The notes under the pieces: generated by a model
What the model saw: the letters and a program-made list of their open reading frames with translations, nothing else
Database searches by the model: none
What the model was told of the DNA's origin: nothing
Made by a program: the position numbers and the translations under genes
Shown here: in pieces, positions 5,124-40,545 of the stretch
Numbering within the stretch: the first letter of the stretch is position 1
Layout of the letters: the number at the start of each line of letters is the position of its first letter
Assembly: GCF_900101435.1 (NCBI RefSeq)
Contig: NZ_FMZH01000004.1
Span: 250,615 to 314,614 of the forward strand
DNA from: Pedobacter soli
GTDB taxonomy: Bacteria > Bacteroidota > Bacteroidia > Sphingobacteriales > Sphingobacteriaceae
Reading direction: 5' to 3'
Length of the DNA: 64,000 nt

Positions 5124-6197
5124 ATGAACAGATTTACGACAATTGGTTTTGCTACGAAATTGATGCTTTCGGCATCGTTGTTAACCATTTCTTGTGCCAA
5201 GAGTACCGCTATCGATACTCCAATAATAAAGGCAGAAGAAAGCTTGCAGAAAAATATGCCTTTTCCGATGGGAGCGGCCTTAAATGTAAGTTTGTTAAAG
5301 AGCAATTCCAGTTATCGTAATCTGATAATTAAAGAATTCAATAGCTTTACCGCCGAAAATGCAATGAAATTTGCTTCGGTACATCCTGCTAAAGATACCT
5401 ACACCTGGGCCGATGCCGATTATCTGGTCGATTTTGCCCTGGCCAATGGCAAACGTGTGCACGGGCATACCTTAAACTGGTACCAGTCGCTGCCAGATTG
5501 GGTTAAAAACTTTCAGGGAACCACAGCCGACTGGGAAAATTTATTGAAAACCCATATCCAGACTGTGGTTGGGCATTTCAAAGGTAAAGTCGCTTCGTGG
5601 GATGTGGTAAACGAAGCGGTTAACGAAGATGGCACCCTGCGCAGCACCATCTGGCTGGAGAAACTGGGCGCCGACTATATCAGCAGGGCATTTCAATACG
5701 CACATGAGGCAGATCCCAATGCCCTGCTTTTTTACAACGATTACGGGCATGAGTACAGTACTACCAAGCGTACCGCCATCATCAATCTGGTTAACGATTT
5801 AAAAAGTAAAGGCATCCCGATTGACGGGATTGGCCTGCAAATGCATACCAACATAACCCAAACCGATGCTAATTTAACTGCCGCAATTACAACCGCTGCG
5901 GCAACCGGACTAAAAGTCCATATTTCTGAAATTGATATCTCGCTTAATCCGGCCAATACACCAGGGGCAACTTATACTGATGCTTTAGCCGAACAACAGG
6001 CTGCCAAATATAAAACCATTGTTAAAGCTTATAATGTCATACCCAAAAATCAGCAGTTTGGCATTACGCAATGGAATGTTACCGATGGTGATAGCTGGAT
6101 TTTATCATTTTATAAACGTGCCGACTGGCCTTTACCATTCGATGCACAATACCAGCGTAAAGCAGCTTATCAGGGAATTTTAGACGGCGTTAAATAG
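5124..6197 (+). CDS. Glycoside hydrolase family 10 endo-1,4-beta-xylanase, lipoprotein
   Basis: A 357-residue GH10 enzyme that cleaves internal beta-1,4-xylosidic bonds in xylan or glucuronoxylan. The lipoprotein signal ends in L-L-T-I-S-C with Cys24. Family motifs run in order: S-F-T-A-E-N-A-M-K-F near 74-83, H-G-H-T-L-N-W near 113-119, the acid/base E164 in W-D-V-V-N-E-A-V, G-L-Q-M-H near 237-241, and the nucleophile E269 in H-I-S-E-I-D-I-S. It is a catalytic domain only, with no binding module. The lipid anchor suggests surface or periplasmic display. It is the one xylan-specific gene in the locus and the main argument for a glucuronoxylan target. Confidence 0.95.
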   Translation: MNRFTTIGFATKLMLSASLLTISCAKSTAIDTPIIKAEESLQKNMPFPMGAALNVSLLKSNSSYRNLIIKEFNSFTAENAMKFASVHPAKDTYTWADADYLVDFALANGKRVHGHTLNWYQSLPDWVKNFQGTTADWENLLKTHIQTVVGHFKGKVASWDVVNEAVNEDGTLRSTIWLEKLGADYISRAFQYAHEADPNALLFYNDYGHEYSTTKRTAIINLVNDLKSKGIPIDGIGLQMHTNITQTDANLTAAITTAAATGLKVHISEIDISLNPANTPGATYTDALAEQQAAKYKTIVKAYNVIPKNQQFGITQWNVTDGDSWILSFYKRADWPLPFDAQYQRKAAYQGILDGVK

Positions 6198-36382: not shown

Positions 36383-37708
36383 TTAAACAGAGCGGTCATT
36401 AGTGCTGAAACGGATGTTGAAATTCGTTTCCTGTTCAGCTACAGAAGTTACTGTAATGTTTAAGTTTAAATAACTGGCAATGCTTTTTACAATCGCAAGT
36501 CCCAGGCCATAACCCGTATTTTCTGCTTGTCCGGTTTTTTTAAAACGATCAAAAATATGGGGAATTTCTGTTGCGGGTATGCCTTGCCCGCTATTGATTA
36601 CCTGGATGCTATATTTACCCTTGTCAAAATGATCAGTAATGCGAATATATCCGTTTTCCCGGTTAAACTTAATTGCGTTATTGATGAGGTTATAAAACAG
36701 CTGAAAAAGCAGATCATGATTCATCTGAGCCTGTTTGTTATTGTATTTAAGGTCAATATTCAGACGGATGTTTTTTTCTTCTAACCTGTGACCGATTTCT
36801 TCTACAACTTCGTTAATCAGGCTAAGGGGTTCTACTTGTTCCTGTTTCGAAAACTGTTCGTTTTCTATTCGTGAAATTAACAGCAGTGCACGGGAAATTT
36901 TCTTTAACCTTTCCAGTGTCCGCATCATTTCCACAATGTGTTCCTGCAGGCTTTCCGGCTCAACTTCTTCTGTAAGCAGGTTTTCCATCTTATTTTGTAA
37001 GATACTGATCGGGGTCATAAACTCATGCGAGGCATTGGCTGTAAACTCGCGTTCTTTTTCAAAAGCTTCATTGATCTGGTTCATTAACGAAATGAGCGAT
37101 TGATCGAGGTATTTAAAATCGTAGGTATTGGTTTTAATCGGCTGCTGGTTTCTTTTAAAAGGAAAACGGGTATTGCCCAGCCGCAGTTTAATAATTTGGC
37201 CCAATGGTTTAATTAATCGGCGGGTAAATATCAGGTCGATGATTATACTTAAAGCAATAAGAATAATCAGCACATACAAGGCAAAGCGTTGCAGCGCATC
37301 ATTATACTGGTTAATACTGGTGGTAGTTTTGCCAATTTCGAGCAGGTAATTCTTTTGGTTCCTGGTAAAAGTAAAACTTAATACACGGTAGGCAAGCGTA
37401 TCCTGTTCAACAATCCTTTTGGTGTCTCTGATGGTATCGAGTTTCAGATCGGGAGCAGCAATTTCGAGCGCGATGTACTCATCTTTAAGCATGGTATAAC
37501 TGCCATAGCTATCCTGGCCTTCGAGGTAGTAGTCCATACCTTTATTGTTGATGTTCCGGATGACTTTCTTTCGCTGGTTTTTGAGCGAAAAATTAGTGTA
37601 ATTGGAAGCAACCTGCCCGATTAAAAAAGGAAGCAATAGAATAAACAGTCCTACAATTGCAAGTTTAGAACCAGTAATAAATAAAGTAAGTTTAGTAGAA
37701 AGTTTCAA
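36383..37708 (-). CDS. Sensor histidine kinase with TTG start
   Basis: A 441-residue kinase: a membrane segment at about 10-32, a periplasmic sensor domain of about 110 residues, a second membrane segment at about 143-163, a short linker, then HisKA with the phospho-acceptor in A-N-A-S-H-E-F-M-T-P-I, and an HATPase (N-L-I-N-N-A-I-K-F-N, I-N-S-G-Q-G-I, G-Y-G-L-G-L-A-I-V). The start codon is TTG, directly abutting the regulator's TAA (TAATTG). No ATG upstream of the first membrane segment exists, so TTG is the only start that keeps it. It phosphorylates the adjacent OmpR-type regulator. Confidence 0.93.
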   Translation of the reverse strand: MKLSTKLTLFITGSKLAIVGLFILLLPFLIGQVASNYTNFSLKNQRKKVIRNINNKGMDYYLEGQDSYGSYTMLKDEYIALEIAAPDLKLDTIRDTKRIVEQDTLAYRVLSFTFTRNQKNYLLEIGKTTTSINQYNDALQRFALYVLIILIALSIIIDLIFTRRLIKPLGQIIKLRLGNTRFPFKRNQQPIKTNTYDFKYLDQSLISLMNQINEAFEKEREFTANASHEFMTPISILQNKMENLLTEEVEPESLQEHIVEMMRTLERLKKISRALLLISRIENEQFSKQEQVEPLSLINEVVEEIGHRLEEKNIRLNIDLKYNNKQAQMNHDLLFQLFYNLINNAIKFNRENGYIRITDHFDKGKYSIQVINSGQGIPATEIPHIFDRFKKTGQAENTGYGLGLAIVKSIASYLNLNITVTSVAEQETNFNIRFSTNDRSV

Positions 37709-38383
37709 TTACTTTTTAATTCTATAGCCAACACCCCTTACGGTTTCGAGCCATTCGGTAGGGGCATACATGTTCAACTTTTTTCTGATGTTTTTAATAT
37801 GGGCATCTATATAATTGGAATCATAATCACCATCGGTAAAATTTCCCCAGATATGCTCGCTCAGCTGGATGCGGGTAAGCACCCTGTTTTTATGAAGCAA
37901 CAAATAACTTAACAAGTCGAATTCTTTGCGCGAGAGTTCAATCTGTTCATCCTCAAAGAAAACAAAGCGTTTCTGAAGGTCGATATTAAAATTGCCCAGC
38001 GGGAGCAGTTCATCAGCAACTTTAAATTTTCTCCTGGCAATGGCCTGCATGCGCGATTGGAGCTCGGGCAGAAAAAAGGGTTTGGCTAAATAATCATCAG
38101 CACCCATGTCAAGTCCGGCCACACGGTCTTCCAGTTTGCCCCTGGCAGTTAAGATCATATAGGCCGCATCTGGATTGCTTTTTTTTGCTTTTTGCAAAAG
38201 ATCGAAACCATCCCCATCAGGTAAGCCCAAATCAATCAGGATATAATCGTACTGGTTGAGTTCGAGCTTCTCTACAGCTTGTTTAAAGCCATGGGCAAGA
38301 TCGCAAAGGAAAAAGGCCTTTTTGAGGAATTTTTCCATCTCAAAGGCAAGTGTTTTTTCGTCTTCTACGATTAATACTTTCAT
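37709..38383 (-). CDS. OmpR-family response regulator
   Basis: A 224-residue regulator with a receiver domain (about 1-115: E-D-E at 7-9, phospho-acceptor D in L-I-D-L-G-L-P-D-G-D-G, and Y-L-A-K-P-F with the conserved Lys) and a C-terminal winged helix (about 130-224: L-S-R-K-E-F-D-L-L-S-Y-L-L, Y-I-D-A-H-I-K-N-I-R-K-K-L, R-G-V-G-Y-R). OmpR/PhoB-type proteins bind tandem direct repeats with 11-bp period; two such repeats lie in the divergent region at 39645-39702, 1.3 kb upstream at the head of this operon. Confidence 0.96.
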   Translation of the reverse strand: MKVLIVEDEKTLAFEMEKFLKKAFFLCDLAHGFKQAVEKLELNQYDYILIDLGLPDGDGFDLLQKAKKSNPDAAYMILTARGKLEDRVAGLDMGADDYLAKPFFLPELQSRMQAIARRKFKVADELLPLGNFNIDLQKRFVFFEDEQIELSRKEFDLLSYLLLHKNRVLTRIQLSEHIWGNFTDGDYDSNYIDAHIKNIRKKLNMYAPTEWLETVRGVGYRIKK

Positions 38384-38386
38384 GTT

Positions 38387-39232
38387 TTAAAACTGATAGT
38401 AAAGGGCAAGGCCAAAGAAAGATTGCTGATGTTTTACTTCTTCTTCTTTTTTGTTTCCTAAGATAGAAAATTGATAGCTGGCTTCGGCCAGGAAATTTCC
38501 GGTACTAAAGTTTAGTGGAAATTTAAAGTTATAGGCCAGTAATTTAAACTGATTGACAGTATTTTCGACAATTTCGGTGGTATTGCCGTTACTAATACCC
38601 GGGGCCGAAGCACTTTTCCCGTGGCCGTTAGCATTTTGTCTTTTACTTTTTTCGATAATGTAGCTCTCGTAAAAGCGCGTGGTACCAGCTGTAATTTCAA
38701 TGGCTGGAGTAATTGAAATTGAACTCTTTCCGTTGAAAATGGTGCCAAGTTCAATTTCCTTTGAGTTTTCAAAACTTAGAAATACATCGCGCTGCTTTCC
38801 AAATGCAAAATCGATACTTAGGCCGGTTTTAAACCAGGGCCAGGTGTAAGCGGAAGATGCATTGATATTATTGCTGTTTGAAGCTTGCAATAAAGGTGAG
38901 TTGGAAGGGAAAAAAGAGTGTGTATAGGCTAAACCCGCGGTAAGTTTTTCGTTAAAATCGTGGTCGAAACCAATACCTAAATCTGTTTCCGATATTCCGG
39001 AACCAAAGCTTAAAAGCTTATAGCCACCACCTGTAAAGTATAAACCATTTGGGAACCTTAATGTGGCATTAAATAATGCATAAGGATATTTTTCGGCCGT
39101 TACTTGTCCATAATAGTTTATGTTGCTGTTGTATAAGGCGGCAAGGGTAAGCGTAGCTTTAGCAGAGTCTTGCTGGGCGTAAACTTTAGCGGTAAGTAAA
39201 AACAAGCAGAAAATTAAGAGACGGATGTTCAT
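38387..39232 (-). CDS. Probable outer-membrane beta-barrel protein
   Basis: A 281-residue protein with a signal peptide (ends A-Q near 19-20) and alternating strands throughout, ending in the F-F-G-L-A-L-Y-Y-Q-F motif with a terminal aromatic, the signature for outer-membrane insertion. About ten to twelve strands can be drawn. The family is not recognised. It lies 3 bp before the regulator gene and 11 bp after the Lys/Pro-rich gene, so it belongs to the same operon and may be the sensed or sensing envelope component. Confidence 0.75.
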   Translation of the reverse strand: MNIRLLIFCLFLLTAKVYAQQDSAKATLTLAALYNSNINYYGQVTAEKYPYALFNATLRFPNGLYFTGGGYKLLSFGSGISETDLGIGFDHDFNEKLTAGLAYTHSFFPSNSPLLQASNSNNINASSAYTWPWFKTGLSIDFAFGKQRDVFLSFENSKEIELGTIFNGKSSISITPAIEITAGTTRFYESYIIEKSKRQNANGHGKSASAPGISNGNTTEIVENTVNQFKLLAYNFKFPLNFSTGNFLAEASYQFSILGNKKEEEVKHQQSFFGLALYYQF

Positions 39233-39243
39233 ATACTTATCCT

Positions 39244-39552
39244 TTAAGGTCTTTTAATTTTTGGTTTAATAATTTTAATAGGCTTAACTTTTACATTAGG
39301 TTTAACTGCCATGGGTTTGAGCTGTCGTCTGGCCTTGGGCACTTCTTTAATTTGTACTTCTTTAATTTGAGGCTGTTCCGGCTGCTGTTGCTTTTCGGCT
39401 TTTTTATGGTCTTGCTTTACTTTCTCTTGCTGTGACTCTTGTTTAATGTATCTGATTGACAATAAGCTTGCCGATAGTGCATCGTTTTGCAGCGCAAACG
39501 AATTGGCACAAATCAAAAAAGTCAGAGAGAAAAAGGCGGTAAATCGCTTCAT
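39244..39552 (-). CDS. Secreted Lys/Pro-rich small protein
   Basis: A 102-residue protein with a signal peptide (to about A20). The mature part is low-complexity: a Q/E/K-rich stretch (about 39-70) with the repeated I-K-E-V motif, then an extremely basic tail of K-P, V-K and I-K repeats (about 75-102, ending K-P-K-I-K-R-P). No fold is expected. A role in bridging or binding anionic envelope polymers is possible, by analogy with periplasm-spanning Pro/Lys segments. It is the first gene of the two-component operon, which makes it the most strongly controlled product. Confidence 0.7.
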   Translation of the reverse strand: MKRFTAFFSLTFLICANSFALQNDALSASLLSIRYIKQESQQEKVKQDHKKAEKQQQPEQPQIKEVQIKEVPKARRQLKPMAVKPNVKVKPIKIIKPKIKRP

Positions 39553-39568
39553 TTTATAAATATAAAAA

Positions 39569-39593
39569 AGTTTACCCTACCTGAGGGTAAACT
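39569..39593 (-). terminator. Intrinsic terminator in the leader of the two-component operon
   Basis: AGTTTACCCT (39569-39578) and AGGGTAAACT (39584-39593) form a perfect 10-bp stem with a 5-nt loop. On the minus strand the hairpin is followed by TTTTTATA, a canonical terminator, only 16 bases before the ATG at 39552 and downstream of the candidate start site near 39625. It could attenuate the operon. Confidence 0.7.
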
Positions 39594-39630
39594 CTTACCA
39601 AAAACCATCATTACAATGGCAATATATCTT

Positions 39631-39666
39631 CAAATGTAAATGGGCAACATGAAAATAAGATGAAAA
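39631..39666 (-). promoter_or_regulatory. Promoter plus tandem-repeat operator of the two-component operon
   Basis: The minus-strand -7 element is TACATTTG (39638-39631). Directly upstream, replacing a recognisable -33, are two TTTCAT half-sites at 39665-39660 and 39654-39649, spaced 11 bp. This is the layout expected for activation by the OmpR-type regulator. Confidence 0.65.
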
Positions 39667-39680
39667 AAATAATTTTTAAA

Positions 39681-39715
39681 TTTCATGTTGGTTTCATCTT
39701 CGGCCTTCAAATTTG
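39681..39715 (+). promoter_or_regulatory. Promoter plus tandem-repeat operator of the DUF4382 gene
   Basis: Two TTTCAT half-sites at 39681-39686 and 39692-39697, spaced 11 bp, lie 5 bases before CAAATTTG (39708-39715), one mismatch from TAnnTTTG. The arrangement mirrors the operator of the opposite promoter. Confidence 0.6.
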
Positions 39716-39747
39716 AGCTATAAAACATGGAATAAAATCTAAACATT

Positions 39748-40545
39748 ATGAAAACAAAATTTGTAAATAGTATAGGTATGGCGCTCGTAATAGCGGGTAT
39801 ATTTGCTTTTACCGGCTGTAAGAAAAATGAATCGGGCGAAGGAACCACGAAGGTTCAGATCAAAATGACCGATGCTCCCGGTAATTTCGATAAGATTAAT
39901 TTAAGTGTAAAGGAAATTGTTCTGGTATCGGGAGATAAACCTTATGTTTTTGCCGCGAGTACCGGAATATTTGATATCCTCGATTTCAGAATCGGTACCA
40001 GTAATCCGGATATTTTGGTGGCTTCTGGCGAAATGCCCAGCGGCGAAATTACTGAAATCAGGTTAGTGCTGAATGAAACCGGAAATACTATTGTGGTTAA
40101 TGGTATTCAGCAGGAACTTAAAACACCAAGTGCCCAAACTTCGGGCTGGAAGGTGAAGTTAACTGCAAATCCTGAATTGGTTGAGGGAGCTGCTTACACG
40201 CTGCTTTTAGATTTTGATGCGGCGAAATCAATTGTAGGCACCGGAAATGGTAAGTATTTATTGAAACCGGTAGTACGTGGTGTAACCGCTGCCACTACAG
40301 GTTTAATATCTGGTACTGTTTTACCTTTAGCCAGTCACCCTGAAGTATTGGTAATTGCGGGTACTGATACTGTAGGTACTGTTGCAGATCCGTTAAGTGG
40401 TAAATTTACTGTAGGAGGTTTAGCTGCAGGTACTTATTCGGTAAAGTTTGTCCCAATTGCGGGTTACAAAGATAGTACTGTTACTGCTGTTAAGGTTGCC
40501 CTTGGTCAAAACACAGCATTGGGTACTATTACATTAAAGCAGTAA
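39748..40545 (+). CDS. DUF4382-domain lipoprotein
   Basis: A 265-residue lipoprotein (lipobox F-T-G-C, Cys24, then K-K). Residues about 35-180 form the DUF4382 domain (V-Q-I-K-M-T-D-A-P-G, I-N-L-S-V-K-E-I, G-E-I-T-E-I-R-L-V-L). Residues about 185-265 look like a carboxypeptidase-regulatory/Ig-like beta domain (G-T-Y-S-V-K-F-V-P). The function of DUF4382 is not known; such proteins are cell-surface or periplasmic. It is transcribed divergently from the two-component operon and shares a mirrored operator with it, so it is probably a member of that regulon. Confidence 0.88.
   Translation: MKTKFVNSIGMALVIAGIFAFTGCKKNESGEGTTKVQIKMTDAPGNFDKINLSVKEIVLVSGDKPYVFAASTGIFDILDFRIGTSNPDILVASGEMPSGEITEIRLVLNETGNTIVVNGIQQELKTPSAQTSGWKVKLTANPELVEGAAYTLLLDFDAAKSIVGTGNGKYLLKPVVRGVTAATTGLISGTVLPLASHPEVLVIAGTDTVGTVADPLSGKFTVGGLAAGTYSVKFVPIAGYKDSTVTAVKVALGQNTALGTITLKQ

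Follow-up and report, generated by a model that had tools for sequence, protein, structure and literature searches.

The window analysed here is a 64,000-nucleotide stretch (G000:C16:250615-314614) of a 6.0-Mb Pedobacter genome (G000). It contains a minus-strand four-gene operon and a plus-strand DUF4382 lipoprotein gene separated by a divergent promoter region in which paired operators are located. The operon encodes, in order, a small secreted protein, an outer-membrane barrel, an OmpR-type response regulator and a histidine kinase:

39748..40545, plus strand: divergent gene encoding a DUF4382 lipoprotein, the predicted target (PF14321, E 1.4e-28)
39244..39552, minus strand: operon gene 1, secreted K/Q/P-rich small protein, 102 aa (from sequence)
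38387..39232, minus strand: operon gene 2, predicted outer-membrane beta-barrel, 281 aa (orthologues, AlphaFold)
37709..38383, minus strand: operon gene 3, OmpR-type response regulator with receiver and winged helix, the proposed binder (PF00072, PF00486)
36383..37708, minus strand: operon gene 4, sensor histidine kinase (PF00512, PF02518)

The response regulator matched the receiver (PF00072, 1.3e-22) and Trans_reg_C winged-helix (PF00486, 2.5e-23) families, both above cut-off, and inspection of the DUF4382 protein revealed a lipobox ending in C. AlphaFold modelling of the 281-aa barrel candidate gave a mainly beta structure of modest confidence (pLDDT 58); the model of the DUF4382 protein was set aside (pLDDT 52). 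Pfam and NCBIfam searches with the 102-aa protein returned no match.

Between the operon and the DUF4382 gene, the sequence TTTCAT-N5-TTTCAT occurs exactly once per strand, at 39665-39649 (minus) and 39681-39697 (plus). The first-pass annotation had described twin TTTCAT half-sites 11 bp apart on each strand, and all four were confirmed as exact; their first bases are 39665 and 39654 on the minus strand and 39681 and 39692 on the plus strand. The promoter region is composed of the following elements:

39631..39638, minus strand: -7 element TACATTTG of the operon promoter, 10 bp past the second TTTCAT core
39644..39665, minus strand: operator of the regulator operon, 11-bp direct repeats TTTCATCTTAT (39665-39655) and TTTCATGTTGC (39654-39644)
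39666..39680, no strand: A/T-only spacer of 15 bp between the divergent operators (from sequence)
39681..39702, plus strand: operator of the DUF4382 promoter, TTTCATGTTGG (39681-39691) and TTTCATCTTCG (39692-39702)
39708..39715, plus strand: -7 element CAAATTTG of the DUF4382 promoter, 10 bp past the second TTTCAT core

The gap between the TTTCAT core and the -7 element was thus 10 bp at both promoters. The gaps of 6 and 5 bases given earlier do not hold when measured from the core and fit only if whole 11-bp units are counted, which leaves 5 bp on both sides. Transcription would start near 39626 for the operon and near 39720 for the DUF4382 gene. The first base of the plus-strand -7 element does not match TAnnTTTG, which is also the case in most promoters of the set, and the offset of this element from the operator is common to the genus. 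The spacer between the operators is longer in other clades, indicating that the two operators are independent.

Alignment of 42 sites from 23 Pedobacter loci defined the full element as two copies of TTTCATSTTNN followed by 5 bp and a -7 octamer (NANNTTTG), so that the conserved unit is longer than the TTTCAT originally noticed. Because the -7 element had been part of the pattern that yielded the 42 sites, a search for the repeats only (at most one mismatch) was run on the same loci, and it revealed TTTG at an identical offset in 39 of 40 repeat pairs. The -12 base of the -7 element was T in 12 of the 42 sites. In nine close relatives, both operators and both -7 elements stood out as conserved islands within the intergenic region. 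With at most one mismatch the full element was present in 59 of 145 Pedobacter genomes, approximately 36 of which had contributed to the definition of the pattern, and a control search with the reversed pattern gave 0 matches across all 145.

In 60 simulated windows of matched dinucleotide content (Markov), the exact TTTCAT-N5-TTTCAT motif was expected 0.05 times per window, with a maximum of 1; the real window holds 2, both within a span of 50 bp. The 6.0-Mb genome contains 4 exact copies, 2 of them at the divergent promoter; the other two, one of which lies inside a 982-aa open reading frame, do not fit the extended element and were discarded. The proposal that TTTCAT-N5-TTTCAT is itself a regulon motif fell at the genome scan, as the bare core with one mismatch gave 145 matches, barely above the 123 of the reversed control. 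The scan, which combined pattern searches with a sequence-only model of the sites, scored the operator of the DUF4382 promoter at 39.8 bits, the top score in the genome, and that of the regulator operon, which is kept in orthologous promoters, at 34.4 bits; the next match reached 16.1 bits. The full element with the -7 in register was found only at the two window sites. Strong sites are thus confined to the divergent promoter, suggesting that the regulon in this genome is local and limited to the divergon, as far as strong sites show. Matches of approximately 16 bits were rejected as additional targets, since one of them, together with related matches in close relatives, belongs to a second operator class described below.

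Of the 145 Pedobacter genomes, 59 encode a regulator orthologue (68-100% identity, E up to 1e-90). The element was present in 58 of these 59 and in 1 of the 86 genomes without the orthologue (Fisher p ~2e-38, ignoring relatedness), a co-occurrence that inside one genus is partly shared ancestry. The regulator-bearing genome in which no recognisable operator was found (G124) is an 81%-complete assembly of 970 contigs, and in the genome having the element without the orthologue (G001) the element precedes a related barrel system whose contig is truncated. Three loci (L151-L153) lack the barrel gene and have, in the divergent position, a gene for an unrelated secreted protein of 205 aa; the operator pair is retained there all the same. 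Judged by these genomes, the element tracks the regulator and not its present neighbour genes. Outside the genus, Niabella encodes a regulator of 62% identity and has the DUF4382 gene relocated behind the kinase gene; both its operon and its DUF4382 gene are preceded by degenerate operators at the right distance from a -7 element (2 observed, 0.01 expected). The recognition helix SNYIDAHIKNIRKKL was identical in all orthologues read, except for one K-to-R change. The first-pass annotation had named the encoded regulator as the binder of the tandem operators, acting on both promoters. The co-occurrence and the persistence of the operators amid changed neighbours strengthen that assignment. The sequences show the sites, their geometry and the association with the regulator, from which we infer binding, phosphorylation of the regulator and the direction of control.

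The 205-aa secreted family recurs elsewhere in the genus behind the operator, either alone or behind DUF4382 (L151:7146-7763; L205:7037-7741; L206:6224-6835; L207:4234-4827 and 5278-5829), and is therein a recurrent additional predicted target. Its members have no Pfam match and carry SINVNIGSQPLWGPVGYDYVDYYYLPD near the N terminus. One genome (G067) has two copies of the gene, each with its own operator. In two others (G166 and G133) the operator pair precedes a gene of this family, but neither a regulator gene nor a kinase gene lies close by; such pairs could be left over from a once complete locus and are no more than suggestive. Three tandem homologues of the family, one with an in-frame stop, occur without an operator at G000:C14:190552-192334, and they were dismissed as further targets in G000 because the site model has no match there.

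Comparison with known regulators placed the protein in the OmpR/PhoB kind, on the strength of its receiver and winged-helix domains, the 11-bp direct-repeat operator and the fixed register of that operator overlapping the upstream promoter element, but below every equivalog cut-off examined. The scores were 184.5 bits for PmrA (NF007928, cut-off 330), 161.3 for PhoB (TIGR02154, cut-off 296.2), 133 for Bacteroidetes PhoB (NF053854, cut-off 270) and 124.8 for RprY (NF051850, cut-off 370), and the protein was also below the PhoP equivalog cut-off. The best NCBIfam match of the kinase, PorY (NF052314), reached 239.8 bits against a subfamily cut-off of 350. PmrA/BasR, which provides the closest curated NCBIfam model and, as a near relative, solved structures (4s04, 8jo2), differs in its operator sequence and accessory genes. 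Another parallel is the E. coli pho box (phoA, pstS, phoB), where a winged-helix OmpR/PhoB regulator likewise acts through a box overlapping the -35 and regulates its own gene, as we propose here. At phoA, whose promoter sequence as used for the comparison was found in 4653 E. coli genomes and whose -10 we take to be TATAGT, the gap from core to -10 is 10 bp, the same as the gap from core to -7 here. The pho box, too, is built of direct repeats of 11 bp, and its core resembles TTTCAT/TGTCAT, as in the phoB site TTTCATAAATCTGTCATA (PMC10294691). Unlike the pho box, the Pedobacter element has other bases after the core (STTNN) and a Bacteroidota TAnnTTTG -7, and unlike the PhoB system it shows no sign of a phosphate regulon and has a predicted regulon of two promoters. 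The Salmonella PhoP box of architecture I (PMC3335776) differs in its hexamer, (T/G)GTTTA instead of TTTCAT, and in its large regulon. In the literature searched, coverage of which was partial, we found neither the motif TTTCAT-N5-TTTCAT as first written nor an OmpR-type operator described for Pedobacter.

When the -7 octamer is placed at -12 to -5, the position of the Bacteroidota sigma-A element TAnnTTTG (PMC9723704), the operator extends from about -39 to -18, across the -33 region. PhoB is known to bind direct repeats overlapping the -35 and to contact sigma (PMC3348028), and Salmonella PhoP boxes are hexamer repeats with a 5-nt separation that form class II sites when located approximately 12 nt upstream of the -10 (PMC3335776). 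The -12 base, so often non-consensus, fits activator-dependent promoters; taken together with a geometry like that at phoA and PhoP promoters, it points to head-to-tail binding, class II activation and autoactivation. In the proposed mechanism, two phosphorylated regulator monomers would bind head to tail on one helix face and, by analogy with PhoB and PhoP promoters, would recruit RNA polymerase through a contact with the sigma factor. The system would thereby activate its own operon, a positive autoregulation, and would also activate the DUF4382 lipoprotein gene. We assign a probability of roughly 0.85 to this reading, in which the divergent promoter carries two operators of the encoded regulator, activating its own operon and the DUF4382 gene, and the regulon is the divergon. 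Judging by the geometry, class II activators may work at TAnnTTTG promoters with the same spacing as at E. coli -10 promoters.

Binding by the encoded regulator might instead repress, if occupation of the -33 region blocked polymerase and resulted in negative autoregulation. The operator does cover the -33 region, where a bound protein can block polymerase too, and PhoB is described as an activator or a repressor, depending on site position (PMC10294691). We nevertheless consider repression unlikely: the fixed 10-bp gap from core to -7 is the one seen at E. coli phoA, an activated promoter, and is near that of class II PhoP promoters, many of the -7 elements have a base other than the consensus T at -12, and so strict a register would be unnecessary for a repressor. 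Far less credible still is the notion that the repeats are no operator and reflect chance or core-promoter sequence (AT-rich DNA, -33 elements). The one-mismatch core is indeed common in this AT-rich genome, as its narrow excess over the reversed control shows, and the plus promoter has a TTG in the -33 register (17-bp spacer), where part of the TT conservation could reflect a -33 element. The absence of reversed-control matches to the full element in 145 genomes, the fixed -7 offset (39/40) and the association with one regulator refute this explanation in the main.

The genome encodes 11 Trans_reg_C proteins, one of which (G000:C24) is 52% identical to the regulator, and another OmpR-type protein could in principle be the main binder. 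We regard this as very improbable, as the 52% paralogue is found in most Pedobacter genomes examined, including those without the element, and tracks a different unit, CTTCATNNAAW, whose sites occurred in 24 of the 25 genomes that have the paralogue and in 0 of the 11 that lack it (36 Pedobacter genomes; p 2e-8; an unplanned comparison, with the units defined on the same data). Activation by the encoded regulator remains our preferred reading, and it provides a concrete, strongly conserved predicted OmpR-type operator for Pedobacter, fixed in place relative to the -7 element, that is predicted to control orphan secreted proteins (DUF4382, the 205-aa family and the barrel).

The second operator class emerged from weak site-model matches in relatives that had a different unit in common. 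It consists of tandem 11-bp CTTCATNNAAW units at the same distance to the -7 as in the first class. A search with TTCATCNAAWCTTCATNTT-N8-ANNTTTG (at most two mismatches) gave matches in 102 of 145 genomes, against 2 matches in total for the reversed control; some were first-class sites, which were removed by hand before the paralogue comparison. The 52%-identical regulator appears to own this class. Class-2 sites are located at G000:C12:147423, C12:270424 and C18:450607 and at loci L279-L285. In G000, one of these sites precedes a gene for a DegP-type trypsin/PDZ protease, hinting at a Cpx-like role in envelope stress, and one precedes a large chitinase/deacetylase/glycosyltransferase gene. 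Four genomes have a class-2 site directly behind the kinase gene of the paralogue; there the operator and -7 (L282:6046, L283:4971, L284:5418, L285:5417) point away from the kinase, and mostly no clear gene follows at once, so the product of these promoters is perhaps a small RNA, or else a secreted peptide of very small size. We think it somewhat probable that the paralogous envelope two-component systems of Pedobacter share one rigid geometry (11-bp tandem units, 10 bp to the -7) and differ in the unit that each reads (TTTCATSTTNN in the case of this regulator, CTTCATNNAAW in that of the 52% paralogue), and that units and recognition helices (SNYIDAHIKNIRKKL/SNFVDVHVKNLRKKL) make up a natural code for the specificity of OmpR-type regulators in Bacteroidota. 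If true, specificity in the two paralogous systems would be directly testable by swapping units (TTTCATSTTNN to CTTCATNNAAT) or recognition helices. Separately, a paralogous barrel-linked system with a 52%-identical regulator was observed at L156, L208, L212 and L155, where the operator units have T or A after TTTCAT, not C or G, and the recognition helix SNYIDVHIKNIRKKL has V in place of A.

The leader of the regulator operon contains one further feature, between the promoter and the first gene:

39566..39596, minus strand: terminator-like hairpin followed by a T run

An Rfam search with the hairpin gave no credible match, and the structure is absent in several clades. Among relatives that have it, one stem pair occurs in A-T, G-T and G-C versions, that is, with compensatory changes, and the hairpin may be an attenuator limiting readthrough into the regulator genes.
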